Source of the DNA: Clostridia bacterium
GTDB lineage: Bacteria; Bacillota; Clostridia; Christensenellales; Aristaeellaceae
Reading direction: 5' to 3'
Length of the DNA stretch: 55,321 nt
NCBI GenBank assembly: GCA_017429695.1
Contig: JAFROK010000039.1
Coordinates: forward strand, 1 to 55,321
Shown: one piece after another, positions 3,540 through 36,857 of the stretch
Position numbering within the stretch: position 1 is the stretch's first letter
Layout: each line of letters starts with the position of its first letter
Position numbers and translations under genes: made by a program
The notes under the pieces: model-generated
What the model was told of the DNA's origin: nothing
Databases searched by the model: none
What the model saw: only the letters and a program-made list of their open reading frames with translations

Positions 3540-3588
3540 AGTTATCAGTTGTCAGAAATCAGTTTTCAGTTATCAGATATCAATTTTT
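3540..3588. repeat. Heptamer tandem repeat block A (7 units)
   Basis: Seven consecutive 7-bp units of the TCAGTTN family run between the acetyltransferase stop and the argF terminator. Read in one phase they are AGTTATC, AGTTGTC, AGAAATC, AGTTTTC, AGTTATC, AGATATC and AATTTTT. This is the longest block of this subfamily in the window. Confidence 0.85.
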
Positions 3589-3595
3589 AATATGA

Positions 3596-3631
3596 AAAAG
3601 CCGGATCAGCGGAAAAACTGATCCGGCTTTT
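3596..3631 (-). terminator. Bidirectional intrinsic terminator after argF
   Basis: A 14-bp perfect stem (AAAAGCCGGATCAG and its complement) encloses an 8-base loop and ends in A/T runs on both sides. It can serve argF on the minus strand and the acetyltransferase on the plus strand. Confidence 0.9.
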
Positions 3632-3640
3632 CAACTTTCA

Positions 3641-4627
3641 TTACAGTGTGGCGGCCATAACGGCTTTGATGGTGTGCATGCGGTTTTCCGCTTCGTCGAA
3701 GACGATGGACTGGGGACCTTCAAAGACTTCGTCGGTCACTTCCATACAGTCGACACCAAACTTTTCGTAGATGCTTTTGCCGATGGATGTGTTCAGGTCG
3801 TGGAAGGAAGGAAGGCAGTGCATGAAGACGCACTGGGGACCGGCCTTGCGCATCACTTCGGCGGTGACCCGGTAGGGCAGCAGGTCCTGAATCCGGGTTT
3901 CCCAGACATAATCCGGTTCGCCCATGGATACCCATACGTCCGTATAGATCACATGGGCACCGGTGACGGCGGCGGTAACATCTTCTTCAAATTCCAGGAC
4001 GGCACCGGTTTCCGCGGCAATTTTGCGGCATTCGTCAATCAGTCGGGAATCCGGATGGTACTTTTTCGGCGCGCAGGCAACAAAGTGCATGCCCATTTTG
4101 GCGCAGCCAACCATCAGGGAATTGCCCATATTGTACCGGGCGTCTCCCATGTAGACCAGCTTGATACCGGAGAGGGAACCGAAGTGTTCCCGGATGGTCA
4201 GCAGGTCCGCCAGGATTTGGGTCGGGTGGAATTCATTGGTCAGGCCGTTCCAAACCGGGACGCCGGAATAACGGGCCAGGTCTTCCACAATCTGCTGGCC
4301 GAAGCCGCGGTATTCGATACCATCGTACATGCGGCCGAGAACGCGGGCGGTATCGGCAATGCTTTCTTTTTTGCCGATCTGGCTTCCCGAAGGATCCAGA
4401 TAGGTGCAGTTCATGCCCAGATCGTACGCGGCCACTTCAAAGGCACAGCGGGTGCGGGTGCTGGTTTTTTCAAAAATCAGGGCGATATTTTTACCCGGGA
4501 ATTCCGCATGTGGAATACCGGCTTTTTTCTTTTGCTTCAGGTCTGCAGCCAGATCCAGCAGGCCGGTGATATCGGCCGGGGACAGGTCCAGCAGTTTGAG
4601 GAAGGAACGCTGGGACAGATGGAACAT
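3641..4627 (-). CDS. argF: Ornithine carbamoyltransferase
   Basis: This enzyme makes citrulline from ornithine and carbamoyl phosphate, either in arginine biosynthesis or, running backwards, in the arginine deiminase pathway. The 328-residue protein has the carbamoyl-phosphate motif STRTR (56-60), the HPTQ motif, the ornithine-binding SMG loop (VWVSMGEP) and HCLP (270-273). Length and motifs are normal. AAGGAG lies nine bases before the ATG. It is monocistronic here, with no other arginine gene nearby, so the sequence does not settle whether it is the anabolic or catabolic type. Confidence 0.95.
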
Positions 4628-4672
4628 TGAGGGTCACTCCTTTTTCATGCATCAAAGCGAATGAATAACATG

Positions 4673-4702
4673 ATTATAGAATATCCGGAAGCAGAGCGTC
4701 AA
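4673..4702 (-). promoter_or_regulatory. argF promoter
   Basis: On the minus strand, TTGACG (4702-4697) and TATAAT (4678-4673) are 18 bases apart, about 45 bases upstream of the argF start. The T/A-rich stretch downstream (GAATAACATGATTA on the plus strand) loosely resembles an ArgR half-site, but I would not call it one. Confidence 0.6.
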
Positions 4703-4756
4703 TGCAGCTGAAAAGGAAAGACAAAAGGGAGACAACAATAAAATTGTTTGTTCCCC

Positions 4757-4786
4757 TTTACAAGCACAATAAATTTGTGCTATAGT
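4757..4786 (+). promoter_or_regulatory. Promoter and operator of the XRE/S24 repressor
   Basis: TTTACA (4757-4762) and TATAGT (4781-4786) form an 18-base-spaced promoter. The palindrome GCACAA-N5-TTGTGC (4764-4780) fills that spacer almost exactly, so a bound repressor would block RNA polymerase. A second, smaller inverted repeat ACAAT-N3-ATTGT lies at 4735-4747. Autorepression is inferred. Confidence 0.65.
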
Positions 4787-4794
4787 AGGGGCGG

Positions 4795-5619: not shown

Positions 5620-5625
5620 AGAAGA

Positions 5626-6294: not shown

Positions 6295-6342
6295 AGGAGA
6301 ACCTTCTTTCTGTATTCGTAAGATGGTGGGATATCAATTTCA

Positions 6343-8014: not shown

Positions 8015-8029
8015 GGCTTGCCTCCCGGG

Positions 8030-9781
8030 TCAGGCGTCATAAGCGCCGTCATCCTGCTGATTGTCAGGATCGGATGTGTAGGAGCCGGCGGCGTTCAGGA
8101 TGGATTCCAGACGATCGACGGCGTCCCGGATGCGGGAATCGCTACCGGATGAAACGGCGGATTCCAACTCCGACACGGCAGCGTCCAGGCCGGAACGGTC
8201 GGCATCCTTCAGCTTTTTCCGGACGCGGCGGGCCTGGTTGAGCAGGCTTTCAGCCTTGTCTTTCAGCTGTGCCTGGTTTTTGCGCTGTTTGTCTTCGGCC
8301 GCATAGCGCTCCGCATCCCGGATGGCCCGGTCAATATCCTCCCGGGACATGTTGCCGGAACCGGAGATCGTGATATCCTGGGCATGGTTGGTTCCCAGGT
8401 CCTTGGCGGTCACATGGACAATGCCGTTGGTATCAATGGAGAAGGTGACCTCAATCTGTGGAATGCCGCGGAGCGCCCGGCGAATGCCGGTGAGGCGGAA
8501 TTTGCCGAGGGATTTATTGGCCGAAGCCACCTCGCGTTCGCCCTGGAGCACGTTGATTTCGACCGTTGTCTGGAAATTGGCGGCGGTGGTAAACACCTGG
8601 GAATGCTGGCAGGGCAGGGGCGTGTTGCGGTCAATGATCTTTGCAAAAACATCGCCCAGCGTTTCAATACCCAGCGAAAGTGGGGTTACGTCGATCAGCA
8701 CCAGGGAATTGATGGCGCCGGTAAGCACGCCGCCCTGCAGGCAGGCGCCCATGGCAACGCATTCATCGGGGTTGATATCCCGGGCAGGCTCCTTGCCGGT
8801 CAGGCTCCGGACGGCTTCCTGCACCGCGGGAATACGGGTGGAACCACCCACCAGCAGGACCCGGCTCAGTTCCTGGGGCTTGAGCCCCGCATCCTGCAGC
8901 GCCTGCTGCACGGGGCCTTTTGTGGCATTCACCAGGTGTGCGGTGAGCTCATTGAAGCGGGCACGGGTGATGGAAGCTTCCAGGTGCATGGGGCCGGCAG
9001 GCCCCTGGGCCAGGAAGGGGAGATTCACGGTGGTTTCCATGGAGGCGGAAAGCTCGATCTTGGCTTTTTCGGCCGCTTCTGTCAGGCGCTGCATGGCCAT
9101 GGGGTCGGATGAAAGATCACGATTGTGTTCCTTCCGAAACAGATCCAGCATATAGCCGACGATGCACTGGTCAAAATCGTCCCCGCCGAGATGGTTGTTG
9201 CCGGCAGTGGCCAGGACTTCGATCGTTTCCGGATTGATTTCCAGGATGCTGACATCAAAAGTGCCGCCGCCCAGGTCATAGACCATGATTTTGCAGGGTT
9301 GTCCTTTATCAAAACCGTAGGCCAGGGCAGCGGAAGTCGGCTCGTTGATGATACGGCGGACGTTCAGTCCCGCAATGACACCGGCGTCCCGGGTGGCCTG
9401 GCGCTGGGCATCGGAAAAATAAGCAGGGACCGTGATGACCGCATCGGTTACCGATTCGCCAATGTAGCTTTCCGCGTCTGACTTGAGCTTTTGGAGGATC
9501 ATAGCGGAGATCTCCTGCGGGGTATAGGATTTGCCGTCCACCTGATACCGATGGTCGGTTCCCATTTCCCGTTTGACGGAGGAAAAAGTGCGTGACACGT
9601 TGGTGACGGCCTGGCGCTTTGCAGCCATGCCGACCAGGCGGTCGCCGGATTTGGTGAAAGCCACGACGGAAGGGGTGGTTCTGCCGCCTTCTGTATTCGG
9701 GATGACAACAGCGCGTCCGTTTTCTATGAAACTGACGCAGGAGTTGGTAGTTCCGAGGTCGATTCCGATGAGTTTGGACAT
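8030..9781 (-). CDS. Hsp70-family chaperone (DnaK paralogue)
   Basis: This ATP-driven chaperone has 583 residues. The nucleotide-binding domain shows [12 protein letters not shown] (about 5-16), [12 protein letters not shown] and [12 protein letters not shown]. The substrate-binding domain begins with [13 protein letters not shown], and a helical lid ends in an acidic tail. It is somewhat shorter than the usual DnaK of 600-640 residues. Neither grpE nor hrcA is adjacent and there is no CIRCE, so it is probably not the main stress DnaK but a dedicated paralogue working with the J-protein two genes on. The promoter region contains TATAAT on the minus strand (9828-9823), though I see no good -35. 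Confidence 0.9.
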
Positions 9782-9794
9782 GTTTTTCCTCCAA

Positions 9795-9808
9795 CTGGTT
9801 AGTGGTTA
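9795..9808. repeat. Heptamer repeat block B (2 units)
   Basis: Two units (CTGGTTA, GTGGTTA) lie just upstream of the Hsp70 ribosome site, related to the TTAGTGG subfamily. It is short and degenerate, and is called because of the longer blocks elsewhere. Confidence 0.5.
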
Positions 9809-11329: not shown

Positions 11330-12367
11330 TCAGAAAAGTTGCAGGACCCGGACGGCGGCTTTCATGGCGGTCGGAAGGGCCCTGTTTTTGATTTCATTTA
11401 TTTCCACAAATTCATAGCCGGCAGGGGCGGCAGTTTCCGACGGGGCTTCGAGGCTGAAAAGGGACATATCCCAGACCTGGTGGGTAAAAACATGCCGCGC
11501 TATGCCGTGATCCTGCACGGCGCCGGCACTGAGATGCAGCTTTGAATGAACTGCGGAGTGAAGATCTTCGGGAGAAAGATGGCCTTCCAGCATCGGGAAG
11601 CACCAGAGCCCCTGGAGCAGTTTTTCCGTGCGCATGCGCAGCAGAAACCGGCTGCCGGAGCGGATGACCAGCACGGTCCACGGGATGGTTTTCGGCTTAC
11701 GGGCTTTCGGCATAAGCGGCAGGTCCGCCGCATCCCCGCGGGCATATGCATCGCAGAAAGCAGAAAGCGGACAGCGGTCACAATCCGGCGTGCCCGGGAC
11801 GCAGACGGTGGCGCCCAGGTCCATCACTGCCTGGTTATGATCGCCCGGACGTTCCGGCGGAACAAGCGCCGCTGCGCGGAATTCGATTTCCCGGCGGGCG
11901 GCAGGTGCGGAAGCGTCTCCGCGAATGCCAAAGAGACGGGAAACAACGCGGATCACATTTCCGTCCACAGCGGGAACGGGAATGTCAAAGGCAATTGAAG
12001 CAATGGCGCCGGCCATGTATGGGCCGATGCCGCAGATGGCAAGGAGCTGATCCGGATCGGAAGGAAGGCTGCCGCCATACTGCTGCATCACCATCCGGGC
12101 ACCGTTCCAGAGATTCCGGGCACGGGAGTAGTAACCAAGGCCTTCCCAGAGCTTCAGTACATCCGCTTCTTCCGCGGCGGCCAGGGACGGCAAATCCGGA
12201 AAGCGGGCCAGGAACCGGTCATAATAGGAAAGGACAGTCTCCACACGTGTCTGCTGGAGCATGGCTTCGCTGACCCAGGTTCGATACGGGTTGTGAATAC
12301 CGCGCCAGGGAAGAACCCGGGCGTTACGGTCATACCAGGTCAGCAGGGCAGCGGTGACGGGATGCAT
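11330..12367 (-). CDS. mutY: A/G-specific adenine DNA glycosylase
   Basis: This enzyme removes adenine mispaired with 8-oxoguanine in base-excision repair. The 345-residue protein has the catalytic glutamate E34 (WVSEAMLQQT), the helix-hairpin-helix ICGIGPYMAGAI, the catalytic aspartate D135 (PAVDGNVIRV) and an iron-sulfur cluster C189-X6-C-X2-C-X5-C205. The C-terminal NUDIX-like domain that reads 8-oxoG is present (about 225-345). AAAGGA precedes the ATG. A five-unit heptamer repeat lies directly upstream of that ribosome site. Confidence 0.95.
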   Translation of the reverse strand: MHPVTAALLTWYDRNARVLPWRGIHNPYRTWVSEAMLQQTRVETVLSYYDRFLARFPDLPSLAAAEEADVLKLWEGLGYYSRARNLWNGARMVMQQYGGSLPSDPDQLLAICGIGPYMAGAIASIAFDIPVPAVDGNVIRVVSRLFGIRGDASAPAARREIEFRAAALVPPERPGDHNQAVMDLGATVCVPGTPDCDRCPLSAFCDAYARGDAADLPLMPKARKPKTIPWTVLVIRSGSRFLLRMRTEKLLQGLWCFPMLEGHLSPEDLHSAVHSKLHLSAGAVQDHGIARHVFTHQVWDMSLFSLEAPSETAAPAGYEFVEINEIKNRALPTAMKAAVRVLQLF

Positions 12368-12380: not shown

Positions 12381-12415
12381 TCAGTGATTAGTGATTAGTG
12401 GTTAATGGCTGGTGG
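12381..12415. repeat. Heptamer tandem repeat block C (5 units)
   Basis: The units TCAGTGA, TTAGTGA, TTAGTGG, TTAATGG and CTGGTGG lie in the leader of mutY, before its ribosome site. They decay away from the gene. Confidence 0.85.
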
Positions 12416-12552: not shown

Positions 12553-15036
12553 ATGTATATGCGTACAGTAAAACCAATGCCCCTTCCCGGATATGATACC
12601 AACGCGATCCAGCCGTGGGAAACAGAACATGCCAAAGTGGCCCGGAAAGCCGCGGCGGAAAGCTTTGTTCTGCTGAAGAATGAGAACAAAACCCTGCCGC
12701 TGAAAAAAGGCAGCAAGGTTGCCCTGTTCGGCGTTGGCGCAGTACAGACCGTCAAAGGCGGCACGGGTTCTGGCGACGTCAACGAACGGTATGATATTTC
12801 CATCGCACAGGGACTGGAAAACGCCGGGTTTGTTCTGACCACCAAAGACTGGCTGCAACGGGCAGAACAGATTTATACCGATGCCCGGATTGCATGGCGA
12901 GAAGCAATCATGGATGATTACAGGAAGAACGGCGGAATATTTTTCCTGGCCTATTCCAGCCACGCATTCCGGATCCCGGCCGGGGATCCGATTCCCACGG
13001 GCAATACCGAAACGAATACGGCAGTTTACGTAATCAGCCGGATTGCCGGTGAAGGCGCGGACCGGGATGCCGGGAAAGGCGACTATCTGCTGACGGATGA
13101 GGAAGAAGCCCATATTCATACCCTGTGCAGATGCTATGAAAAGGTAGTGCTGCTGCTGAACGTGGGCGGGGTGATTGACCTGGGCATCCTGGACAGGGAG
13201 CCGAACATCAGAGCGGTGCTGCTCATCGGCCAGCCCGGTATGGAAGGTGGCAATGCCGTGGGTGACGTGCTGTGCGGTGATGTGCCCGTTTCCGGCAAAC
13301 TGACGAACACCTGGGCGCAGAAATATGAGGATTATCCGAATGCAATGACGTTCTCCCGGATGAACGGGGATGTGGAGCATGAAATCTACACGGAGGATAT
13401 CTATGTCGGATATCGGTATTTTGATACATTCGGGATTCCTGTGCGGTTCGGATTCGGCGAGGGACTGAGCTATACGGATTTTCGGATTGAAAATGTGAAG
13501 ATCAACGCATCTGCCGACGGAAAAGTGAATGTCCGGGCTGCGGTGAAAAATACAGGCGGAAGTCCCGGACGGGAGGTTGTACAGGTATACCTGATGCTGC
13601 CTGACATCAAGCCGGGCAGGGAGCTGCGCCGGTTGGCGGCTTTTGCCAGGACTCCGCTCCTGCAAGCCGATGAAACATGCGAAGTGGTCATGTGCTTTGG
13701 TCCGCAGGAAGCTGCGTCCTACTGTGAAAGCCGAGCGGTTTGGGCTGTTCCGGCAGGACGTTATGGTGTATGCGTCGGCAGCAGCCTGAAGGACAGCGAA
13801 GTTTACGGATGGCTGGACGTAAAAGAAGAAAAGATCCTTGAAAAATGTGAAAATATCTGCCCGTGCCAGCAGGAAATTGATACGCTCAGACCTGACGCGG
13901 CAAAACGGGCAGAGCTGGCGGACGCCGTTCCGCAGCGCAGTGCGGAAACGGCTGAATGGGATCTTTCCGGCGTGAAGACGGTTTGCCATGTATACGGAAA
14001 TCCGGATGAATCCGGTGATGAAGCGGCGGCCATTGCCGATACGCTGAGCGAGGACCAGATGATCCGGCTGGTGATCGGGGATCCGTCCAGGGGCCAGGGA
14101 AGCACCATCGGCGCCGCGGGTGTATCGGTGCCCGGATCTGCTGCTGAAACCAGCGGCGCGGCCCTGGAACAGGGCGTGGCCGGCATTATTCTGGCGGATG
14201 GTCCCGCGGGACTGCGCCTGACGCCGGTATGCCATATCCAGGACGGCAAGGCGGTGAATCCCGGATTCCTGAACAGCATTGAACATGGATTCTTTGCCGA
14301 GACAACAGAGGAACCGGCAGGGGAAAGGCGGTATCAGTACTGCACTGCAATCCCGGTAGGATCTTTGCTGAGCCAGAGCTGGGATCCGGAAGTGCTCTCT
14401 GAATGCGGCGACGCGGTAGGCGATGAAATGGAACGGATGAATGTGACGCTGTGGCTGGCACCCGGCATGAACATTCACCGGAATCCGCTGTGCGGGCGGA
14501 ATTTTGAATACTACAGCGAGGATCCGCTGCTTTCCGGAAAAATGGCTGCCGCGATGACTGCCGGCGTCCAGAAACACCCGGGATGCGGCACCACCATCAA
14601 GCACTATGCCTGCAACAACCAGGAAGACAACCGCATGGGTTCCGACAGTATCCTGACGGAGCGGGCGCTGCGCGAAATCTACCTGCGGGGATTCGGGATC
14701 GCCATCCGCGAAAGCAAACCAATGTCCATTATGACCAGCTACAACTTTATTAACGGCATACATTCCGCGAACAACTATGACCTGTGTACGAAGGCGGCCC
14801 GGAATGAATTCGGTTTCAAAGGCGCGATCATGACTGACTGGGGAACCACCAATCACGGAAGGGACTGCTGCGCCGCCGGATGCATTCGGGCAGGCAACGA
14901 CTGGACGATGCCCGGCCAGCCGATGGACCATGAATCCGTACGGAACGCATTGGCGGACGGCAGCCTCAGCCGGCAGGAACTGAAGGACTGTGTGATCCGG
15001 ATTATCCGGGTAATCCTGAAGTCCAGCAGATATTGA
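12553..15036 (+). CDS. GH3 beta-glycosidase with permuted domain order
   Basis: This 827-residue glycosidase probably hydrolyses beta-glucosides or beta-xylosides from plant cell walls. The order is reversed compared with most GH3 enzymes. The usual C-terminal alpha/beta sandwich comes first (about 18-270, starting AAAESFVLLKNE), then a fibronectin III-like domain (about 310-400), then the catalytic barrel (about 490-820). The nucleophile is probably D762 in MTDWGTTNHG. Permuted GH3 enzymes are known from rumen Ruminococcus and Butyrivibrio. No signal peptide is visible, so it is likely cytosolic and acts on imported oligosaccharides. ACAGGAGG upstream is a strong ribosome site. Confidence 0.9.
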   Translation: MYMRTVKPMPLPGYDTNAIQPWETEHAKVARKAAAESFVLLKNENKTLPLKKGSKVALFGVGAVQTVKGGTGSGDVNERYDISIAQGLENAGFVLTTKDWLQRAEQIYTDARIAWREAIMDDYRKNGGIFFLAYSSHAFRIPAGDPIPTGNTETNTAVYVISRIAGEGADRDAGKGDYLLTDEEEAHIHTLCRCYEKVVLLLNVGGVIDLGILDREPNIRAVLLIGQPGMEGGNAVGDVLCGDVPVSGKLTNTWAQKYEDYPNAMTFSRMNGDVEHEIYTEDIYVGYRYFDTFGIPVRFGFGEGLSYTDFRIENVKINASADGKVNVRAAVKNTGGSPGREVVQVYLMLPDIKPGRELRRLAAFARTPLLQADETCEVVMCFGPQEAASYCESRAVWAVPAGRYGVCVGSSLKDSEVYGWLDVKEEKILEKCENICPCQQEIDTLRPDAAKRAELADAVPQRSAETAEWDLSGVKTVCHVYGNPDESGDEAAAIADTLSEDQMIRLVIGDPSRGQGSTIGAAGVSVPGSAAETSGAALEQGVAGIILADGPAGLRLTPVCHIQDGKAVNPGFLNSIEHGFFAETTEEPAGERRYQYCTAIPVGSLLSQSWDPEVLSECGDAVGDEMERMNVTLWLAPGMNIHRNPLCGRNFEYYSEDPLLSGKMAAAMTAGVQKHPGCGTTIKHYACNNQEDNRMGSDSILTERALREIYLRGFGIAIRESKPMSIMTSYNFINGIHSANNYDLCTKAARNEFGFKGAIMTDWGTTNHGRDCCAAGCIRAGNDWTMPGQPMDHESVRNALADGSLSRQELKDCVIRIIRVILKSSRY

Positions 15037-18878: not shown

Positions 18879-18905
18879 GAGTGATTAGTGGTTAGTTGTC
18901 AGTTT
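18878..18905. repeat. Heptamer tandem repeat block D (4 units, mixed subfamilies)
   Basis: The units AGAGTGA, TTAGTGG, TTAGTTG and TCAGTTT link the two subfamilies in one array. It fills the whole gap between the convergent metA and GH36 genes and supplies the GH36 stop codon and last residues. Confidence 0.85.
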
Positions 18906-21070: not shown

Positions 21071-21084
21071 TCAGTTGTCAGTTA
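21071..21084. repeat. Heptamer repeat block E (2 units)
   Basis: TCAGTTG and TCAGTTA lie directly upstream of the GH36 ribosome site. Confidence 0.6.
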
Positions 21085-21243: not shown

Positions 21244-23481
21244 GTGTACTGTCAGGTCATTGTGGACATTGTTCATGAAAACGTGGCACGGCCTTTTACC
21301 TACCTGATTCCGGAAGGGATGGAGCTGAGTCCCGGGCAGCGGGTAGCGGTGCCGTTCGGACGAATGGAAAAGGAAGGCGTGGTGACAGCCCTGACGGAGG
21401 AAACGGATGTCAGCCCGGAAAAGCTGAAAGCGGTCATCCGTCCCCTGGAAGACTATGCGGCCATTCCGCCGGAACTGATGCTGCTGGCGCGGGAAATGGC
21501 GGAGGAAAACCACTGCCCGATGGCGGAAACGCTGCGGCTGATGATGCCCGCCCAGATGCGCGGCGGACGGATCCATCCAAAGACGGAAAAAACAGCATGC
21601 CTTGCCGTATCCCGGGAAGAAGCGGAAAAGGCGATTGAAGAAAACAAGCGCGGCGGCAAACGGAACGAACTCCTGCGGCTGCTTTCGGACGGAAATCCGC
21701 GGCCGGTCAGGGAACTGGAAGCGCATGTCAAAGATCCCCGTGAGGCCCTGAAGAAACTTCACCAGGACGGACTGATCACGCTATATGACGCGGAGACCAT
21801 GCGCACGCCCGGCAGCAGTTTTGAGGAAGTGCAGGACCCCGGATATACGCTGACCGCCGGACAGCAGGAGGCACTGGATGAAATCCTGCCGGCGCTGGCG
21901 GGAGACGGCGGCGCGTTCCTGCTGCATGGCGTTACCGGAAGCGGGAAAACGGAAGTTTTCATGGCAGCGGTACGCAGCACCCTGTCCGCCGGAAAGAGCG
22001 CCATTATCCTGGTGCCGGAAATTGCGCTGACGCCCCAGATGGTATCCTGGTTCAGGGGCCGGTTCGGATCCGTCGCGGCGGTAATTCACTCGCGGCTGAG
22101 CGCCGGTGAACGGTATGATGAATGGCGCCGGATCCGCCGAGGAGAGGCACGGGTGGTGATCGGCGCGCGAAGCGCGGTGTTTTCACCGGTCCGTAAGCTT
22201 GGTATGATCGTGATTGATGAGGAACACGAGAGCACTTACCTGAATGACCGGCACCCACGGTATGACACCCGGGACGTAGCGTTGAGCCGATGCAGGCGGG
22301 AACACGCCGTGCTGATCCTGGCCAGCGCCACACCGAGCATCCTGAGCTTTGCCCGGGCACGCAGGGGAGATTATGTCCTGCTGGAAATGCCGGACCGGGT
22401 GAACGACCATCCGCTGCCGGAAGTTGAGATTGCGGATATGCGGGAGGAACTGGAGCGCGGTAACCGGTCCGTGCTCAGCAGGGCCCTGCAGCAGGCGCTG
22501 AAAGAATGTGCCGCCCGGAAAGAACAGGCGATTCTGCTGATGAACCGGCGCGGATATCACTCCTTCGTTTCGTGCCGAAGCTGCGGATATGTTGTCAAAT
22601 GTCCGAACTGTGATATCAGCATGACATACCATATCGGACAGAATGACGGGATGCTGCGGTGCCATTACTGCGGAAGCGCAATGCCGATGCCTTCCGCATG
22701 CCCGTCCTGCGGCGGAGAATATATCAAATTCTTCGGCGCGGGAACCCAGAAGGTGGAGGAAGAAGTACAGAAGCTGCTGCCGGGTGTTCCGACGGTGCGG
22801 ATGGACTACGACACCACCAGCGGCAAGGACGGGCACGGGAAAATCCTGGAAGAATTCCGGAGCGGACGGGCCCGGATCCTGATCGGAACGCAGATGATTG
22901 CCAAGGGACTGGATTTTCCCCAGGTCACACTGGTTGGCGTTGTGGCGGCAGATCTGGCACTGAACCTGCCGGATTACCGGAGCCGCGAACGCGCGTTCCA
23001 GCTGTTTACACAGGTGGCCGGCCGGGCCGGCCGTGGGAGCCTGCCGGGACGCGTGATTATCCAGACTTACAAACCGGAGGATCAGGTGATCTCGTTTGCG
23101 GCAAGGCAGGATTACCGTGCATTCTTTGAAAGTGAGTTCAGGCGGCGCCGGAACGGACTGTATCCGCCCTTTACGAAACTGGCGCGGATCCTGGTGGAAA
23201 GTCCACAGGAGGCCATTGCGGACCGGATTGTCCGGGAAATGGATACGGCGGCAAGGGAACTGCTGGATGATCATCCGGAATGGCGGAGAAAGATCCTGAC
23301 GATGATCAATGACCCGCCGTCGGTACAGTTCCTACGCGGGAAACACAGGCGGCAGGTGCTGATGAAGACGCTGGTGAGCCCGGAGACGGAGGCATTCTTC
23401 GGGGAACTGAGCGGAATGATTGCAGCGCCGTTTGAGGGAGCGGAAGTATACCTGGAAGTCAATCCGACGACGATGATTTAG
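21244..23481 (+). CDS. priA: Primosomal helicase PriA
   Basis: PriA restarts stalled replication forks by loading the replicative helicase. The protein has 745 residues from a GTG at 21244; AGGAGG at 21231-21236 is seven bases upstream, so I prefer it to the ATG at 21220. It shows the DNA-binding N-terminal domain (VYCQVIVD), Walker A GVTGSGKTE (229-237), the motif II DEEHE, eight zinc-binding cysteines (CRSCG, CPNC, CHYCG, CPSCG) and the helicase C domain (GTQMIAKGLDFP). It leads the translation operon. Its stop codon is part of heptamer block F. Confidence 0.96.
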   Translation: MYCQVIVDIVHENVARPFTYLIPEGMELSPGQRVAVPFGRMEKEGVVTALTEETDVSPEKLKAVIRPLEDYAAIPPELMLLAREMAEENHCPMAETLRLMMPAQMRGGRIHPKTEKTACLAVSREEAEKAIEENKRGGKRNELLRLLSDGNPRPVRELEAHVKDPREALKKLHQDGLITLYDAETMRTPGSSFEEVQDPGYTLTAGQQEALDEILPALAGDGGAFLLHGVTGSGKTEVFMAAVRSTLSAGKSAIILVPEIALTPQMVSWFRGRFGSVAAVIHSRLSAGERYDEWRRIRRGEARVVIGARSAVFSPVRKLGMIVIDEEHESTYLNDRHPRYDTRDVALSRCRREHAVLILASATPSILSFARARRGDYVLLEMPDRVNDHPLPEVEIADMREELERGNRSVLSRALQQALKECAARKEQAILLMNRRGYHSFVSCRSCGYVVKCPNCDISMTYHIGQNDGMLRCHYCGSAMPMPSACPSCGGEYIKFFGAGTQKVEEEVQKLLPGVPTVRMDYDTTSGKDGHGKILEEFRSGRARILIGTQMIAKGLDFPQVTLVGVVAADLALNLPDYRSRERAFQLFTQVAGRAGRGSLPGRVIIQTYKPEDQVISFAARQDYRAFFESEFRRRRNGLYPPFTKLARILVESPQEAIADRIVREMDTAARELLDDHPEWRRKILTMINDPPSVQFLRGKHRRQVLMKTLVSPETEAFFGELSGMIAAPFEGAEVYLEVNPTTMI

Positions 23482-23505
23482 TGATTAGTGGTTAGTGATT
23501 AGTGA
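23478..23505. repeat. Heptamer tandem repeat block F (4 clean units)
   Basis: The units TTAGTGA, TTAGTGG, TTAGTGA and TTAGTGA are an almost perfect array between priA and def. The first unit carries the priA stop TAG (23479-23481). Confidence 0.92.
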
Positions 23506-23538: not shown

Positions 23539-24039
23539 ATGGGAACACGGAATATTGTGAAGGTTGGCGATGAGACGCTGCGGAAGATCTGCAAGCGGCA
23601 GGAGAAATTTGACCTGCGGCTGGCGATCCTCCTGAAGGATATGGCGGATACGATGTACAAGGCGGAAGGCGTCGGGCTTGCGGCTCCGCAGGTCGGGATC
23701 CTGCGCCGGATTGCTGTGGTGGATGTGACGGAAGATCACAGCGGGCTGCTGGAACTGATCAATCCGGAAATCGTGGAAAGCGAAGGTACCCAGACCGGAC
23801 GGGAGGGATGCCTGAGCGTACCCGGACGGCAGGGCGTTGTGACCCGGCCGATGAAAGTCCGGGCCAGGTATCAGAACCGGAAAGGCCAGTGGATGGAAAT
23901 TGAAACCGAAGGGTTCGAGGCCCGGGCGATCTGTCATGAGCTGGATCACCTGGACGGGAAGCTCTACATCGACATGATGGACCGGGAACTGACCCAGGAA
24001 GAAATTGAAGGACATATCCCGGAGGATGACGCACAGTGA
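23539..24039 (+). CDS. def: Peptide deformylase
   Basis: This iron/zinc hydrolase removes the formyl group from new proteins. The 166-residue protein has all three motifs: GVGLAAPQVG (44-53), EGCLSV with metal ligand C91, and HELDHLDG with H133, E134 and H137. Its stop overlaps the GTG start of fmt (GTGA), pairing the enzymes that add and remove the formyl group. A GGAGAG lies upstream. The sequence is ordinary. Confidence 0.96.
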   Translation: MGTRNIVKVGDETLRKICKRQEKFDLRLAILLKDMADTMYKAEGVGLAAPQVGILRRIAVVDVTEDHSGLLELINPEIVESEGTQTGREGCLSVPGRQGVVTRPMKVRARYQNRKGQWMEIETEGFEARAICHELDHLDGKLYIDMMDRELTQEEIEGHIPEDDAQ

Positions 24040-24953
24040 GAATTGTTTTCATGGGAACCCCGCAGTTTGCGGTTCCGGCCCTGGAAGCCCTGATCGCGCT
24101 GGATGGTGCAGAGGTGGTCGGTGTATTTACCCAGCCGGACCGCCCGAAGGGACGTGGCAACAAACTGGCGATGAGCCCTGTCAAGGAAACCGCTGTGAAA
24201 GCCGGAATTCCTGTATTCCAGCCGGAACGAATCCGTAAGACGGGCGTCGATGACCTGCGGAACCTGCAGCCTGACCTGTGCGTGACGGCAGCGTTCGGGC
24301 AGATCCTGAGCCAGGAAATCCTGGATATTCCGCCGATGGGGAATATCAATGTTCATGCCTCCCTGCTGCCGAAACACCGGGGATCGGCGCCGATTGCCCA
24401 CGCGATCATGGCCGGCGACCGGAAGGCCGGCGTTACCACGATGATGATGGATGCCGGGATTGATACCGGGGATATGCTGCTGAAGGCGGAAACGGAAATC
24501 GGAGAAGGCGAAACATGCGGCGAACTGACGGAACGGCTGAGCAGGATTGGCGCGGAGCTGCTGGTCCGCACGATTGAGGCAATGCGGGCCGGGACCCTGA
24601 AGCGTATTCCGCAGAATGAAGCGGAAATGACATATGATCAAATGCTGACGAAAGAAATGGGCATTCCGGACTTTACTGCGGACGCGGACAAAGTATGCGG
24701 ACTGATCAACGGACTGAATCCATGGCCCTGCGTAAGCATTCCGGCCGGTGAAGAGTGGCTGAAGCTGCTGCGGGCCGTGGTAACGGAGGGCAGCGGAAAA
24801 GCGGGAAGCTACATTGCCGCTGATCCGAAAAACGGACTCGTGATTGCCTGCGGAAAAGGTGCGGTTAAGGTGCTGGAACTGCAGGCGCCCGGCGGGAAGA
24901 AAATGCGGGCAGAGGATTATCTGCGGGGACATAGTTTAGTGATTAGTGATTAG
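24036..24953 (+). CDS. fmt: Methionyl-tRNA formyltransferase
   Basis: This enzyme formylates initiator Met-tRNA. The 305-residue protein begins at a GTG overlapping the def stop. It shows MGTPQFAVPALEAL, NVHASLLPKHRGSAPI with the catalytic Asn-His region, the MDAGIDTGDMLL aspartate motif and the C-terminal OB-like domain (VNGLNPWP-type segment). The final residues (SLVISD) and stop are encoded by the start of heptamer block G, so the original C-terminus may have been replaced or extended. Confidence 0.95.
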   Translation: MRIVFMGTPQFAVPALEALIALDGAEVVGVFTQPDRPKGRGNKLAMSPVKETAVKAGIPVFQPERIRKTGVDDLRNLQPDLCVTAAFGQILSQEILDIPPMGNINVHASLLPKHRGSAPIAHAIMAGDRKAGVTTMMMDAGIDTGDMLLKAETEIGEGETCGELTERLSRIGAELLVRTIEAMRAGTLKRIPQNEAEMTYDQMLTKEMGIPDFTADADKVCGLINGLNPWPCVSIPAGEEWLKLLRAVVTEGSGKAGSYIAADPKNGLVIACGKGAVKVLELQAPGGKKMRAEDYLRGHSLVISD

Positions 24954-24977
24954 TGGTTAGTGATTAGTGTTCAGTAA
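24936..24977. repeat. Heptamer tandem repeat block G (6 units)
   Basis: The units TTAGTGA, TTAGTGA, TTAGTGG, TTAGTGA, TTAGTGT and TCAGTAA form the longest TTAGTGR array in the window. It begins inside the fmt coding end and runs to just before the rsmB ribosome site. Confidence 0.93.
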
Positions 24978-32095: not shown

Positions 32096-32099
32096 CAGC

Positions 32100-33449
32100 A
32101 TGAATCAAGATACGATAGCGGCGATTGCTACACCGCCCGGAAACGGCGGGATCGGCATTATCCGGATGAGCGGTCCAGAGGCGGAACGGATTCTGAATGA
32201 AATATTCAGGCCGGCCGGAAACGGAACCCTTCCGCTGCTGAACCGCTACCTGGCCTATGGCCGGGTGGCCGACGGGGAAGAAACACTGGACGAATGCATG
32301 GCGGTGATCATGCGCGCACCGGGCAGCTACACCCGGGAAGACGTGGCGGAAATACAGACCCATGGCGGTACCATTGTGTTGAACCGTGTGCTGCAGCTGT
32401 GCATCGCCCGCGGCGCACGGCTGGCGGAACCCGGGGAGTTTACACGCAGGGCTTTCCTCAACGGACGGATTGACCTGAGCCGTGCGGAAGCGGTGATGTC
32501 CCTGATCAGCGCCCGGGGAGAACAGCAGTACCAGTCCGCCATCCGCCAGATGGAAGGCGGAACAGCGGACTTTATCCGCGGCGTTTCTGACGAGCTGTAT
32601 CAGCTGCAGGCCGGACTGGCCGCGTGCATCGATTATCCGGAAGAAATATCGGATGAGGAAGGTGCCGGAGGACTGAAGGCCGGACTGGAAAGGCTGATCC
32701 GAAATCTGAAAGAGGCGGTGGACGAACAGGGCGCCCGGCTGATCCATGACGGCCTTCGGATTACGATCTGCGGTACGCCGAATGCGGGGAAAAGCAGCCT
32801 GCTGAATGCGCTGCTGGGACAGGAACGGGCCATTGTCACCAATATTCCGGGAACAACCCGGGATACGGTAGACGGGGAAATCATGTTGGAAGGTATCCGG
32901 ATTCTGCTGACTGACACCGCAGGCCTGCGGGAAACGGAAGACCCGATTGAGCGAATCGGCGTGGCCAGATCGCAGCAGGCGCTGCGCAGCGCGGATCTTG
33001 TGCTGCTGGTGCTGGACGGATCCCGGCAGCCGGATGAAGATGAAAAAGAACGGATCCGGCAGGAAACAGACCGGTGCATTGTACTGATCAACAAGAGCGA
33101 CCTGCCGCAGGAAGTGACAGAGGATGAAATTCATGAAATGAACCCGGCGGTACAGGTGCTTACGGTTTCCGCCATCAGCACAGATACGTTACAACCGCTG
33201 AAAAACCTGCTCCGGGAGAGGATCCGCCTGGATGACCGGATGACGCTGACGCAGCCCCGGCACCTGGAAGCGGTCCGCCGGGCACTTGGATATCTGCATT
33301 CGGCGTTGGCCACCCTGGAGACATGGACACCTGATATGGCCGCAACGGACCTTCAGGCAGCTCAGGCGGCGCTGGGAGAGATTACCGGGGACCGGGCCGA
33401 CGAAAAGCTGCTGGATCGGGTATTTTCCGAGTTCTGTGTGGGAAAGTAG
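32100..33449 (+). CDS. mnmE: tRNA modification GTPase MnmE
   Basis: With MnmG, this enzyme makes the carboxymethylaminomethyl group on wobble uridine. The 449-residue protein has the folate-binding N domain (DTIAAIATPPGNGGIGIIR), a helical domain, the inserted G domain with GTPNAGKSS (225-233), DTAGLRE and NKSD, and the conserved C-terminal FCVGK containing the catalytic cysteine. The TAG stop comes from heptamer block H. It is usually near rnpA/yidC at the origin, so its place in the priA-prkC operon is less common. Confidence 0.95.
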   Translation: MNQDTIAAIATPPGNGGIGIIRMSGPEAERILNEIFRPAGNGTLPLLNRYLAYGRVADGEETLDECMAVIMRAPGSYTREDVAEIQTHGGTIVLNRVLQLCIARGARLAEPGEFTRRAFLNGRIDLSRAEAVMSLISARGEQQYQSAIRQMEGGTADFIRGVSDELYQLQAGLAACIDYPEEISDEEGAGGLKAGLERLIRNLKEAVDEQGARLIHDGLRITICGTPNAGKSSLLNALLGQERAIVTNIPGTTRDTVDGEIMLEGIRILLTDTAGLRETEDPIERIGVARSQQALRSADLVLLVLDGSRQPDEDEKERIRQETDRCIVLINKSDLPQEVTEDEIHEMNPAVQVLTVSAISTDTLQPLKNLLRERIRLDDRMTLTQPRHLEAVRRALGYLHSALATLETWTPDMAATDLQAAQAALGEITGDRADEKLLDRVFSEFCVGK

Positions 33450-33459
33450 TGATTAGTGA
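33446..33459. repeat. Heptamer repeat block H (2 units)
   Basis: GTAGTGA and TTAGTGA provide the mnmE stop and lead straight into the ribosome site GAGGAG of the next gene. Confidence 0.7.
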
Positions 33460-33467
33460 GGAGCTGA

Positions 33468-34592
33468 TTGGGATTGAAGGTTTTACGGGGAAGAGGGAGC
33501 CTGAAAAAACTGGGAGAATTAATGGAAAAGCTGGAAATCCGGCATCCGATGATTGTCGGCATGGAGCCGCTGACCGGCCGGATCCTGAAGCTGAATCCGG
33601 GCCTGCTCAGCTGTCCGGTGTTTTCCGCTTTTCATCCAAATCCGGACTTGCAGGACGCACTGGCCGGAGCAGATATGTTCCGGAAGGAATCATGTGACGG
33701 CCTTGTTTCGATCGGCGGAGGATCTTCCATCGATACGGCAAAAGCGGTCAAAGCCCTGCTGAATGTTCCATCGGTGGACGATGTGGCACATAACCGGTTT
33801 CCGGAGAAACTGCAGGTTCCGCATATCGCTATTCCGGGAACAGCCGGAACCGGATCAGAAGCGACGCAGATTGCCGTGGCTTATGTGAACGGCAGCAAAG
33901 TGAGCCTGAACCATCCGGACCTGTTGGCGGACGGCGTCGTACTCGATGCATCCCTGCTGGAAAGCCTTCCTGCATACCATAAAAAATCCTGTGCGCTGGA
34001 CGCCCTGGCTCAGGGGATTGAAAGCTACTGGTGCGCGGCGGCAACGGATGACAGCCGGGTACATGCCTACCTGGCGATTCTCGGCGTTCTGGACAACCTG
34101 AAGGCATATCTGAACGGTGATCCTCACGCGGCAGAAGAAATGCTGGACGCCAGCTTCCAGAGCGGCAAGGCTATTCAGATTACCCGGACCACTGCAGCGC
34201 ATGCCATGTCCTACCGACTGACGAAGAAATACGGTCTTGCCCACGGACATGCCGTGATGGTCACCCTGCCGGTGCTATGGGAAATGGCAGCGGAACATGA
34301 AGAAATGCAGGATGTGCTCGGTGAACTGACAAAGATTATGCGCCTGGGGGATCCGCTGATGGTTCCGAGGCTGCTGAAAGGAATCATGTTCGACCTGGAG
34401 ATGCAGATTCCGGAACTGCCGGATGACGCGGCACTGGAAGAACTGGCCGGGTCTGTGAACGCGGAGCGGATGAACAATCACCCGGTGAAAATGACGCACG
34501 GGGAGATTAAGGAAGCCTACCGGCGCGCAATGACGCCGATGTGCGAAGCGGAAAAGCAGGCATGCCTGGATATATGGCGGTACTATCAGTAA
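33468..34592 (+). CDS. Iron-containing alcohol dehydrogenase family protein
   Basis: This 374-residue group III dehydrogenase has the NAD-binding GGGSSIDTAKAVKALL and IPGTAGTGSEATQIAVA. Metal-site helices are DALAQGIESYW and the histidines of YGLAHGHAVMV. The substrate (alcohol, aldehyde or phosphonate-derived aldehyde) cannot be read. A TTG start at 33468 follows GAGGAG (33458-33463) at good spacing; I see no in-frame ATG that keeps the N-terminal strand. It follows mnmE by 18 bases, so a metabolic gene sits at the end of the translation operon. Its last codons and stop fall in heptamer block I. Confidence 0.85.
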   Translation: MGLKVLRGRGSLKKLGELMEKLEIRHPMIVGMEPLTGRILKLNPGLLSCPVFSAFHPNPDLQDALAGADMFRKESCDGLVSIGGGSSIDTAKAVKALLNVPSVDDVAHNRFPEKLQVPHIAIPGTAGTGSEATQIAVAYVNGSKVSLNHPDLLADGVVLDASLLESLPAYHKKSCALDALAQGIESYWCAAATDDSRVHAYLAILGVLDNLKAYLNGDPHAAEEMLDASFQSGKAIQITRTTAAHAMSYRLTKKYGLAHGHAVMVTLPVLWEMAAEHEEMQDVLGELTKIMRLGDPLMVPRLLKGIMFDLEMQIPELPDDAALEELAGSVNAERMNNHPVKMTHGEIKEAYRRAMTPMCEAEKQACLDIWRYYQ

Positions 34593-34613
34593 TTCATTTT
34601 CAGTTACCAGTTT
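34586..34613. repeat. Heptamer repeat block I (4 units)
   Basis: The units TCAGTAA, TTCATTT, TCAGTTA and CCAGTTT start within the last codons of the dehydrogenase gene and end just before the radC ribosome site (AAAGGCGG). Confidence 0.75.
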
Positions 34614-34634
34614 GAATAAGAAAGGCGGATCGCA

Positions 34635-35450
34635 ATGATTAACTGGGATGATCCGGAAGCTATCCGGCAGGCTTACCTGTACGGAACGGATGAAACGGAA
34701 GATGCCGGGATGTGTGAGGCACTTGTTTCGGAATTTTCAGCAGAAACAGAGAAAAATGTCCATGCCAACCACCGGGAACGCCTGCGCCAGCGGTTTATCC
34801 AGGAAAACGGTTTCGATCATTTTACGGATCACCAGATTCTGGAACTACTGCTGTTCTACGCAAACGCCCGTTCCGATACCAATCCGCTGGCCCATGAACT
34901 GCTGGACGCGTTTGGATCGCTGAAAGGTGTGCTGGAAGCAAGGCCGGAGATGCTTCAGACAGTCAAAGGCGTCGGACCCCAGGCGGCCATCCTGATTTCC
35001 ATGGTTGTTCCGCTGACAAGGGTATGGAACCGATGCGCCATGGTGAAGCCGGACCGCATCGGCAACAGCCGTGAAGCTGAAAAATTCTGCATGTCCGTAC
35101 TGGCCGGACATCGGACAGAACGGTTTTATGTTGTGGCACTGAACGCCCAGTGCCAGGTGCTTGGACAGCGCAAGATTTCAGAGGGATCACTGAGCGAGGT
35201 TTCCGCTTATCCGCGGATGGTCATGGAGACAGCGCTGAACTATAACGCACACAGCGTGCTGCTGTGCCACAACCATCCGGGCGGGACGTGCGCACCTTCA
35301 CCGGAGGACATTTCCTCCACGCTGCAGCTGCAGCGGCTGCTGAACGGCGTGGGAATCCTGGTGCTGGACCATATTATTGTGGCCGGAAGCAATACCTACA
35401 GCATGATTGAACACGGCGATATTGATTACCGTATCCGGAACCGGTCATGA
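34635..35450 (+). CDS. radC: RadC/UPF0758 JAB-domain protein
   Basis: The 271-residue protein has a helix-hairpin-helix region (about 75-125, ELLLFYANARSD, LQTVKGVGPQAA) and a JAMM metalloprotease-like core H212-X-H214 ... D225 (HNHPGGTCAPSPED). Despite its name, a role in DNA repair is not established for this family. The N-terminus has an extra acidic leader of about 45 residues before NHRERLRQRF, where the family usually begins. RBS: AAAGGCGG. It may be cotranscribed with the following DUF218 gene. Confidence 0.9.
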   Translation: MINWDDPEAIRQAYLYGTDETEDAGMCEALVSEFSAETEKNVHANHRERLRQRFIQENGFDHFTDHQILELLLFYANARSDTNPLAHELLDAFGSLKGVLEARPEMLQTVKGVGPQAAILISMVVPLTRVWNRCAMVKPDRIGNSREAEKFCMSVLAGHRTERFYVVALNAQCQVLGQRKISEGSLSEVSAYPRMVMETALNYNAHSVLLCHNHPGGTCAPSPEDISSTLQLQRLLNGVGILVLDHIIVAGSNTYSMIEHGDIDYRIRNRS

Positions 35451-35469
35451 CAGACAAGGAGACAGCGGT

Positions 35470-36099
35470 ATGCGCAGAAAATCAAGACGTGTCCGGAAAC
35501 TGACCAGATTCCTGCTGATCTTTCTTTGCGTGATGGTTCTCGCGTTTGGCGGGATTGTGGGATATATCTGTATCCGGGAAGGGAAGGTGGAGACCGTTTT
35601 GACAGATCAGATGCGCTATGATGCCATTATCGTGCTGGGCGCACAGGTAAAGCCTGACCGGACTCCGAGCGTTCAGCTCACATGGCGCCTGGATGCCGCA
35701 GCTGAGGCATTTGCAAAGCATCATGTACCGATTGTTGTCTGCGGAGCACAGGGCAGCGATGAGCCATGTCCTGAGTCAGTGATCATGAAGCAGTACCTTG
35801 TTGAGGAAAGAAACGTGCCGGACTACCTGGTCCTCGAAGATCCGGATTCCCGCAATACCTATGAAAACCTGGAAAACGCCCAAAAGCTGCTGGCCGGGAA
35901 TACGGATATCAACCGCGTACTGATTGTGACCAGTGATTATCATGTACCCCGGTCGATGGCCATCGCCGGGGACCTCGGATTTGAAGCGGAAGGGCTTGGC
36001 AGCCCCTGTCTGCCGGAATACTGGATCAAGAACCATGGCCGGGAAGCCCTGGCTTGGTGCAAATACTGGCTGAAGAAATACCTGCATATTTCCCTGTGA
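35470..36099 (+). CDS. DUF218 (SanA/YdcF/ElyC-type) membrane protein
   Basis: The protein has 209 residues from the ATG at 35470, chosen because AAGGAGACAGCGGT precedes it; an earlier ATG at 35407 lies inside radC. A basic start and one membrane helix (about 12-35, FLLIFLCVMVLAFGGIVGY) are followed by an extracytoplasmic DUF218 domain. Domain motifs are IIVLGAQVKPDRTPS, the GAQGSDEPCPE region, and DSRNTYENLENA. Relatives affect envelope integrity and vancomycin permeability in enterobacteria. The substrate is unknown. Confidence 0.85.
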   Translation: MRRKSRRVRKLTRFLLIFLCVMVLAFGGIVGYICIREGKVETVLTDQMRYDAIIVLGAQVKPDRTPSVQLTWRLDAAAEAFAKHHVPIVVCGAQGSDEPCPESVIMKQYLVEERNVPDYLVLEDPDSRNTYENLENAQKLLAGNTDINRVLIVTSDYHVPRSMAIAGDLGFEAEGLGSPCLPEYWIKNHGREALAWCKYWLKKYLHISL

Positions 36100-36106
36100 G
36101 GTGACT

Positions 36107-36826
36107 ATGAACCGGGAAGATATCCGAATTCGCCTGGAACAGAATGAAATTCCCGCTCCGATTGAACTGCCGGAACGGCTGGAAATCTATCTGGCGCTAT
36201 TGAAAGAATGGAACAGCAGAATGGACCTGACGGCATCCGTGGAGGACGGCGAGATTGTTGACCGCCACCTGATGGACAGCCTGACTGTACTCAAAACCGA
36301 CTATGCGGCGGAAAAGACCTGCTGGATTGACGTGGGAACCGGTGCAGGATTTCCCGGCCTAGTGATTGCCATGGCCCGTCCGGATATTGATATGACTCTT
36401 CTGGACGCCCAGCAGAAACGGCTGAATTTCCTGCAGGCGGTGATGGATGCAGCGGGCATCACAAACGCGCATACGGTTCATGCCCGGGCGGAGGAAGGCG
36501 GTCGGAAGAAGGAACTCCGGGAACAGTTTGACTGTGCCGTTGCAAGGGCTGTCGCACCGCTGAATGTGCTGAGCGAATACCTGCTGCCCTATGTGAAAAT
36601 CGGCGGATGTGCCTTGTGCTGGAAAGGACCGGCACTGCGGGATGAACTGGAGGCCGGCCGACGGGCAGCCCATCTGCTGGGCGGAAGACTGGAAATGCCC
36701 GTTTCCTGCCCGGTATACGGACAGAACTGGGACCATATGATCCTGCCGATCCGGAAGACAGAAAAAACAGCGGCTGCCTATCCCCGGAAACCGGGAATGC
36801 CGAAAGCGAAGCCGCTGGGGGTTTAG
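36107..36826 (+). CDS. rsmG: 16S rRNA m7G527 methyltransferase RsmG
   Basis: This SAM-dependent enzyme methylates G527 of 16S rRNA. The 239-residue protein has the motif WIDVGTGAGFPGLVIAMARP, LLDAQQKRLNFLQ and AVARAVAPLNVL. I chose the ATG at 36107; a GTG at 36101 is also possible and the GAGGTG Shine-Dalgarno does not decide clearly. In many bacteria rsmG lies with mnmE/mnmG near the origin; here mnmE is three genes upstream. The TAG stop is in heptamer block J. Confidence 0.93.
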   Translation: MNREDIRIRLEQNEIPAPIELPERLEIYLALLKEWNSRMDLTASVEDGEIVDRHLMDSLTVLKTDYAAEKTCWIDVGTGAGFPGLVIAMARPDIDMTLLDAQQKRLNFLQAVMDAAGITNAHTVHARAEEGGRKKELREQFDCAVARAVAPLNVLSEYLLPYVKIGGCALCWKGPALRDELEAGRRAAHLLGGRLEMPVSCPVYGQNWDHMILPIRKTEKTAAAYPRKPGMPKAKPLGV

Positions 36827-36857
36827 TTATCAGCTGTCAGTTTTCAGTTATCAGTTT
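36823..36857. repeat. Heptamer tandem repeat block J (5 units)
   Basis: The units TTAGTTA, TCAGCTG, TCAGTTT, TCAGTTA and TCAGTTT fill the space between convergent rsmG and the ROK kinase gene. They supply the rsmG stop and, on the other strand, the TDN-stop end of the kinase. Confidence 0.92.

Follow-up and report, generated by a model that had tools for sequence, protein, structure and literature searches.

Heptamer repeat arrays at gene edges in an Aristaeellaceae genome: placement, orientation and possible origin

Heptamer arrays in the window and across the genome

The stretch analysed here, positions 1 to 55,321 of contig JAFROK010000039.1 from a Clostridia bacterium of the family Aristaeellaceae (assembly GCA_017429695.1; hereafter the window), carries tandem arrays of 7-bp units at the borders of genes such as dnaK, mutY, priA, fmt and mnmE (Table 1). 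The original prediction had placed two unit subfamilies, TTAGTGR and TCAGTTN, at ten coordinates, and related motifs are present at all ten. Its estimate of two to seven tandem heptamers per block holds in part: seven blocks contain at least two adjoining perfect TYAGTK units (3559, 12381, 18885, 21071, 23478, 24936 and 36823/36837), while those at 9795, 33446 and 34586 are weak, each with one perfect unit and degenerate neighbours that were read by eye, and are unremarkable when taken alone. We refer to TTAGTGR as A, TCAGTTN as B and TCAGGTN as D units; both predicted subfamilies are present, and the D type is a third that had been missed. The block at 18885 joins A and B units in one array, as had been claimed.

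The two-unit pattern TYAGTKNTYAGTK matched 15 times in the window and the three-unit pattern eight times, compared to 0.06 and 0.00 matches expected from 100 dinucleotide shuffles. None of the seven clear blocks lies inside a predicted gene, and several overlap last codons and supply the stop, in agreement with the proposed placement at gene borders. The two-unit pattern likewise has no match past 37 kb, as predicted; an array-free final 18 kb is unremarkable, since there are only 55 three-unit sites in 3.03 Mb.

The assembly (3.03 Mb, 60 contigs, 88% complete) contained 93 three-unit matches, whereas the reversed control gave 0, which bears out the expected excess of copies; overlapping matches were merged by hand into the 55 sites. 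Widening the pattern to TYAGKK, which adds TCAGGTN, yielded 132 three-unit matches. Chance or base composition as the cause was ruled out by the reversed control and the shuffle counts. Among periods 4 to 13, period 7 alone was strongly enriched, with 57 arrays compared to 10 for the next best (period 12), in 671 kb of stretches chosen around array sites, where the other periods serve as an internal control. An assembly artefact is unlikely, because the arrays of the window sit inside the contig and have neighbours conserved across the genus on both sides.

For further analysis, 65 arrays were listed from 42 stretches of the genome (the window and 41 others), each with two or more perfect units side by side. 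TTAGTGG (72) and TTAGTGA (56) are the commonest units in this set, and B units occur as TCAGTTG (21), TCAGTTA (19) and TCAGTTT (17), 57 in sum. The longest listed array (L172, 7994-8069) switches from TTAGTGR to TCAGGTN inside one array.

Table 1. Heptamer blocks and further features of the window, followed by copies of a second palindrome in other stretches of the genome.
Feature	Position	Strand	Context
B-type array, about 7 TCAGTTN units, partly degenerate	3538..3587	+	between convergent genes, with the stop of a GNAT-acetyltransferase-like gene (2987-3535) 2 nt before it and a T-run hairpin after it
Weak block, one perfect TTAGTGG	9795..9808	+	missed by the two-unit patterns; ahead of minus-strand dnaK (8030-9781), just upstream of its Shine-Dalgarno site
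A-type array, TCAGTGA, TTAGTGA, TTAGTGG, then decaying units	12381..12415	+	divergent gap; adjoins the Shine-Dalgarno site of mutY (11330-12367, minus strand), whose start codon is 13 nt away
Mixed array, A units then B	18885..18905	+	convergent gap; between a metA-like gene (end 18878), whose stop is 6 nt away, and a minus-strand GH36 gene (18892-21054), the final codons of which it overlaps
B-type two-unit array	21071..21084	+	divergent gap; adjoins the Shine-Dalgarno site of the GH36 gene, whose start codon is 16 nt away
A-type array, 4 units	23478..23505	+	between priA and def; first TAG is the priA stop codon (priA end 23481)
A-type array, 5 perfect units and 1 imperfect	24936..24977	+	end of fmt (24036-24953), whose last codons and stop codon come from the array; rsmB-like gene next
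Weak block, one imperfect and one perfect unit	33446..33459	+	end of mnmE; TAG is the mnmE stop (end 33449), directly after the FCVGK ending common to 19/19 same-genus orthologues
Degenerate B-type block, one perfect unit	34586..34613	+	end of an Fe-ADH-like gene (end 34592), whose TAA stop codon it supplies
B-type array, 5 units	36823..36857	+	convergent; contains the rsmG stop codon (end 36826) and the opposite-strand tail of a ROK gene (36844-37728, minus strand)
GH3-like enzyme	12559..15033		inverted domain order, C-terminal domain first and N-terminal last (Pfam)
tRNA-Leu	41744..41827	minus	
Five-tRNA cluster	51814..52220		Val-Asp-Phe-Gly-Cys
Second palindrome	L165 9344; L168 7989; L171 15884; L173 4299 and 9990; L175 8029; L160 16739; L167 12070		near the 3' end of an array

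Position, orientation and unit order of the arrays

No listed array lies inside a predicted gene (0 of 65). For distances, one array at a stretch edge was dropped (n = 64), and an end was scored as abutting at up to +6 nt from a stop or up to 20 nt from a start. With the arrays read in the direction of the TTAGTG strand, 52 of 64 have a 5' end that abuts a gene edge, compared to 26.4 expected when arrays were placed at random in the same gaps (standard deviation 2.6, largest value 36, 5000 trials). The 3' end abuts in 17; both ends do so in 15 arrays, the 5' end only in 37 and the 3' end only in 2. The gene edge on the 5' side is a stop codon in 38 cases and a start in 26. Behind a co-directional gene, the 5' end falls between -21 and +6 nt from the end of the stop codon in 34 of 38 arrays, and in 25 of these 38 the stop codon lies within the array and is supplied by it. 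Of 17 antisense arrays in co-directional gaps, 15 have a 5' end 8-20 nt away from the start codon, a distance that leaves room for a Shine-Dalgarno site, and those that were read stand just upstream of a Shine-Dalgarno-like sequence. Gaps of one kind hold sense arrays by the stop and antisense arrays by the start, which selection acting on promoters or terminators does not by itself explain, and the tie of the 5' end to a gene edge whatever the gene direction requires polarity. Arrays can persist only outside genes or as a new gene end, because every one of the three unit types includes a stop codon on one strand or both, and 7 is not divisible by 3.

The tight position beside start codons (15 of 17 antisense arrays) and the unit sequence common to all sites would also suit functional binding sites, for example of an RNA-binding protein acting on translation, as proposed for TAACTGA repeats in MacGregor's discussion of them (PMC4679880). 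This explanation is quite unlikely in our view: placement depends on array orientation and not on gene function, 38 of 64 arrays stand behind stop codons, the neighbours are varied housekeeping genes (priA, fmt, mnmE, mutY) with orthologues that carry no arrays where compared, and 38 of 45 genus members are without a three-unit match.

In 57 of 65 arrays, the strand that reads TTAGTG/TCAGTT is the one richer in G (p = 3e-10, with skew taken over up to 16 kb), and when each of the 42 stretches was counted once and one tie dropped this was the case in 35 of 41 (p = 5e-6). Canonical A arrays lie on the G-rich strand in 31 of 32 cases and the others in 26 of 33. In co-directional gaps with genes on the G-rich strand, 31 arrays are sense and 7 antisense, and with genes on the other strand none is sense and 10 are antisense (p = 3e-6 for the table). 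Array orientation therefore follows the DNA strand and not the gene, and gene direction was ruled out as its cause. The G-rich strand is probably the leading strand of replication. Selection or stability could account for such a bias if one orientation were lost faster on a given replication strand, and the bias is indeed confined to this genome among the carriers tested; as this leaves both the 5' abutment and the unit order unexplained, we hold it to be very improbable. Two TTAGTGT arrays (L163, 8001 and L178, 2428), both oriented against the strand rule, have the 3' flank tttagtgttttgcc in common and are possibly a separate copied unit.

Type changes within arrays run one way: nine lead from A to B, two from A to D (TCAGGT) and none in reverse (11 of 11), in a count that skips imperfect units. 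Units decay on the 3' side, where the next two units match 3.18 and 2.91 of 6 positions (background 2.17), and less is retained on the 5' side, with 2.77 and 2.08 of 6. The A/G wobble letters of neighbouring units are anti-correlated, with 35 identical pairs in 100 steps where about 50 are expected (standard deviation 4.7).

Relatives, distant carriers and known heptamer repeats

The arrays are a burst in one lineage of a 45-genome genus. Compared to the 132 three-unit TYAGKK matches of this genome, the other 44 hold 24 together; 38 of them have none, and the matches are found in G012 (15), G062 (4), G021 (2) and G002, G022 and G011 (1 each). In 19 same-genus stretches corresponding to the 18-37 kb part of the window, no such array occurs at the orthologous borders, with 18 of 19 relatives comparable at 23478 and 33446, 6 at 21071 and 3 at 36823. 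A two-unit TYAGKK scan of these stretches gave 2 isolated matches in 349 kb, neither of them tandem. The original prediction had named a chance copy number and a fixed orthologous sequence as outcomes that would speak against it; we found an excess of copies and arrays absent from the compared relatives. In priA and mnmE the array begins where the orthologues have their stop codon, and the mnmE orthologues end at the same residue in 19 of 19 cases. In fmt it begins directly after the conserved end.

No array-bearing close relative suited to base-level comparison was found: the longest same-genus matches at the tested locus are 73-75% identical, with parts up to 80%, and nine carriers with Clostridia-type or Selenomonadaceae labels reach at most about 75% over more than 100 bases, arrays aside. 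In the phylum of this genome, three TTAGTGR units are present in 4 of 299 sampled genomes, this one included. Other heptamers also form arrays at gene ends within the genus, namely AATTCAG in G033 and G015 (L191, 8372-8405 and L194, 4692-4718) and TTAGTGGATAGTGG in a further relative (L203).

Arrays in other phyla were found by one exact 27-mer, which favours A units and an A-G-A wobble and occurs in at least 117 reference-genome stretches. Among the matches listed are labels of Bacteroidales, Fibrobacter, Ignavibacteria, Elusimicrobia, Clostridia, Selenomonadaceae, Victivallales, Planctomycetaceae, Granulicella, Gammaproteobacteria and Roizmanbacteria, which we take to represent about nine phyla; single taxon labels may be wrong because most carriers are metagenome bins. 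In 27 carrier genomes chosen from the 27-mer matches, three-unit matches ranged from 3 to 761, and the reversed control from 0 to 398, being not clean in the richest genomes, which hold many other repeats. None of 119 arrays in these loci lies inside an open reading frame (ORF), and 94 are nearer to a gene at their 5' than at their 3' end. In a second set of 40 stretches from seven of the 27 genomes, all with Clostridia-type labels, 29 of 36 arrays (a few of which may repeat the first set) are nearer to a gene at the 5' end; 17 have an abutting 5' end and 6 an abutting 3' end. Three TTAGTGR units occur in 11 of 198 genomes of the phylum of B. stercorirosoris, two of which were previously known carriers. 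Wobble alternation was not confirmed in other carriers, where 67 of 126 neighbours are identical in arrays without the 27-mer, a subset biased towards identity; in their arrays of at least 8 units the count is 173 of 406, which includes arrays chosen by the 27-mer. Viral carriage was considered as a vehicle and rejected, with only 9 viral-contig stretches holding the 27-mer; where viral-contig arrays have a gene on the 5' side, 8 of 13 lie within 10 nt of it.

The original prediction had suggested expanding slippage repeats or the product of an unknown element. A product of an element or process is plausible because the arrays are dispersed, located at gene borders, outside predicted genes and lineage-specific. 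Plain replication slippage would expand seeds mostly near stop codons while purifying selection clears genes. That period 7 stands out, that the unit contains TAG and TGA and that the stop codon is included in 25 of 38 arrays is consistent with it, as are array indels between two Cyanothece strains, mostly in 7-nt steps in the comparison given in PMC4679880. Slippage copies a neighbour, yet wobble neighbours are identical in just 35 of 100 steps here, and 5' abutment at start codons, which offer no stop-codon seed, is not accounted for. Simple in-place slippage is insufficient since it leaves the identity of the unit across phyla, the strand bias and the anti-correlated wobble of this genome unexplained, and we consider plain slippage unlikely.

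In Bacteroides, TTAGTG arrays are the inverted arms of a dispersed hairpin around a conserved imperfect palindrome (GCTGCGCTAT..GCCGCA). The core GCTGCGC..GCCGCA bears at least three arm families, TTAGTGR, GTTGACN/GGGGACN and AGCTACR (L132, L233, L248, L249, L273, L274). At a first convergent border, another hairpin stands between closely similar flanks in G147, a sister genome with 91% identity across the locus. At a second, two genomes (G147 and G122) are empty and three carry hairpins: the TTAGTG hairpin in G134, a different one in G065 and, in G133, one that combines the same core with other heptamer arms. A further genome, G146, shares the left gene but has a different right neighbour, and there the core bears yet another set of arms. 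These alleles imply that the two borders gain and swap hairpins, and that arm units can change around a constant core. Of the 119 arrays outside the genus, 42 have inverted units within 150 nt on their 3' side and 5 on their 5' side, compared to 17 and 16 of 920 random positions. The corresponding numbers in this genome are 3 and 0 of 65.

This genome also contains a second dispersed palindrome, AGATYCTTCGCTTCGCTCAGRATGACA (AGATYCTTCGC..), with 12 loose matches in the 671 kb. Six are within 120 nt of a listed array and two more directly follow TCAGGT units (Table 1). A literature search by its letters gave no paper.

Repetitive extragenic palindromic (REP) and REPIN sequences with their RAYT transposases are dispersed short intergenic elements, probably non-autonomous, and in this the heptamer arrays resemble them. 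The heptamer arrays could be arms or relics of REP-like palindromes moved by a Y1 (HUH) transposase on single-stranded DNA, with one-strand insertion giving the orientation and a target preference giving the position at gene edges. The Bacteroides form, whose inverted TTAGTG arms flank a conserved palindromic core as in REP/REPIN and whose core is also found with other heptamer arms, speaks for this idea, as do the excess of inverted units on the 3' side outside the genus (42 versus 5 of 119), the second palindrome beside arrays and the two Y1 copies of this genome. Unlike REP/REPIN, however, the repeats are tandem heptamers, the arrays here are single-sided and show no fixed palindrome (3'-side inverted units in only 3 of 65), and the Y1 family PF01797, present in 28 of 45 genus genomes, has no evident relation to them: G152 has 8 copies without arrays and this genome 2, though the second-richest, G012, has 5. 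Moreover, different arms around one core suggest that the arms arise separately from the core. We therefore consider transposition of this kind rather unlikely.

The short tandemly repeated repetitive (STRR) heptamers of heterocystous cyanobacteria are likewise dispersed 7-bp tandem arrays in intergenic regions. The belief that heptamer arrays are known only from these cyanobacteria is not supported, as the class is also reported, in the accounts given in PMC4679880 and PMC4692102, from Beggiatoaceae, Bacteroidetes, Xanthomonas and Helicobacter pylori. MacGregor (2015) described TAACTGA direct repeats in marine Beggiatoaceae, Cyanobacteria and Bacteroidetes (PMC4679880), and the B unit TCAGTTA is the exact reverse complement of this heptamer. 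As portrayed there, those repeats resemble ours in being intergenic, with some over stop codons and many just upstream of starts, in their patchy phylogeny and in mixing with related heptamers; in one organism, where Shine-Dalgarno sites are rare, they stand mostly just before start codons. Here, by contrast, A units dominate, a Shine-Dalgarno site is usually visible between array and start, stop codons more often precede the array and orientation tracks the G-rich strand. Eight Microcystis arrays sampled between stop codons in the same study all have one chromosomal orientation (PMC4679880).

Rehm (2015) presented GGGAATC arrays from Xanthomonas and GGGGAYT arrays from Nostoc, and mentioned GTGATTA in H. 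pylori, which is the A unit rotated (PMC4692102). In that description, too, the arrays consist of heptamers with variable positions, are intergenic, overlap stop codons and are nearer to the 5' than to the 3' ORF (28 versus 160 nt in Xanthomonas), as here; GGGAATC also forms inverted pairs. These arrays differ from ours in their unit sequence and in forming G-quadruplexes (PMC4692102). The arrays of this genome belong to the known class of dispersed intergenic heptamer arrays, expanded in this lineage. Apart from unrelated papers, literature searches by the array letters led to MacGregor's study and to a Thiomargarita paper. Absent from the literature as searched are the burst in one genus, the strand bias, the one-way unit order, the array-supplied stop codons as compared to orthologues and the wider list of carriers.

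A polar copying step as possible origin

We propose that the arrays are non-coding and self-spreading, that they arise through a polar copying step and that selection keeps them in check, a tentative reading with a probability of roughly 40%. The proposal builds on the copy number, the lineage restriction, the 5' abutment, the strand bias, the one-way unit order and the absence in compared relatives; from these we infer copying as the process, a ratchet and a link to replication. The empty and filled alleles at the second Bacteroides border, as a case of gain elsewhere, also speak for it. A 3' DNA end in or beside an array would acquire heptamer units from its own or another array. This pick-up would be strand-asymmetric, and in this genome tied to one replication strand, as the strand bias suggests. 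The product would rejoin the old flank, and repeated rounds would shift the 5' boundary towards the gene until selection halts it at a stop codon or Shine-Dalgarno site, while the 3' flank with its promoter would be retained.

Several points weigh against this proposal. No enzyme was found, and counts of Y1 transposases and reverse transcriptases show no evident relation to the arrays across the 45 genomes, so that this content was rejected as a driver; the single RVT_1 match of this genome is located at a contig end. Genes were called with a simple home-made codon-usage finder in the 42 stretches, which had been picked because they hold arrays. Abutment at the 5' end is weak in divergent gaps (3 of 9), and a B-like unit stands out of register on the 5' side of one array (L149, 979), where the type-change count does not see it. 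The strand rule is broken by 8 of 65 arrays (four B-type, two TTAGTGT, one mixed with TCAGGTG and one two-unit array), and the identification of the G-rich strand with the leading strand, read from skew, is only probable for this genome.

Nor does the bias extend to other carriers. The G-rich strand holds the array in 62 of 119 cases, with 25 for and 14 against where skew size exceeds 0.05, and in 21 of 36 cases in the second, Clostridia-type set, in which the genome with the strongest skew has 0 of 4 on the G-rich strand. Strand bias as a general rule was accordingly dropped. Xanthomonas arrays, too, have no leading/lagging preference according to the relevant part of PMC4692102, compared to 57 of 65 on the G-rich strand here. 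Because the bias is absent elsewhere, coupling to replication may be peculiar to this genome, or another correlate of GC skew may be causal.

Finally, gap lengths leave insertion and replacement undecided. The gaps at 23478 (57 nt; relatives 16-86) and 33446 (72 nt; relatives 68-141) are within the range of the relatives, and the gap at 21071 (165 nt) exceeds that of each of the six relatives compared (114-136). Conserved codons at 36823 are 56 nt apart here, compared to 57, 2 and 26 nt in three relatives; an equal-length replacement at this border, first based on one relative (57 versus 56), was dropped once all three values were considered.

Heptamer arrays have so far been noted organism by organism and explained as regulators or slippage. 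In this lineage they obey measurable rules, namely the 5' gene edge, the array-supplied stop codon and the one-way unit order, and they rewrite the stop codons of essential-looking genes (priA, fmt and mnmE). Nearness at the 5' end holds also in carriers from other phyla and, with another unit, in the Xanthomonas set as published in PMC4692102. A common copying process may scatter a heptamer repeat through unrelated bacteria. In its strongest form, many phyla would share an exchangeable machinery for polar, template-guided addition of heptamers to 3' DNA ends near genes, the unit being fixed but for one A/G wobble position, acting here on one replication strand; this is a doubtful extension to which we attach little weight. 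If true, one machinery would build the TTAGTGR, TCAGTTN, TCAGGTN, AGCTACR and GGGAATC families, which would be why unrelated heptamers obey one 5'-edge rule. The strong strand bias of one lineage provides a handle on how such arrays arise, and whether they are fossils of slippage or products of a shared mobile process becomes a testable question.

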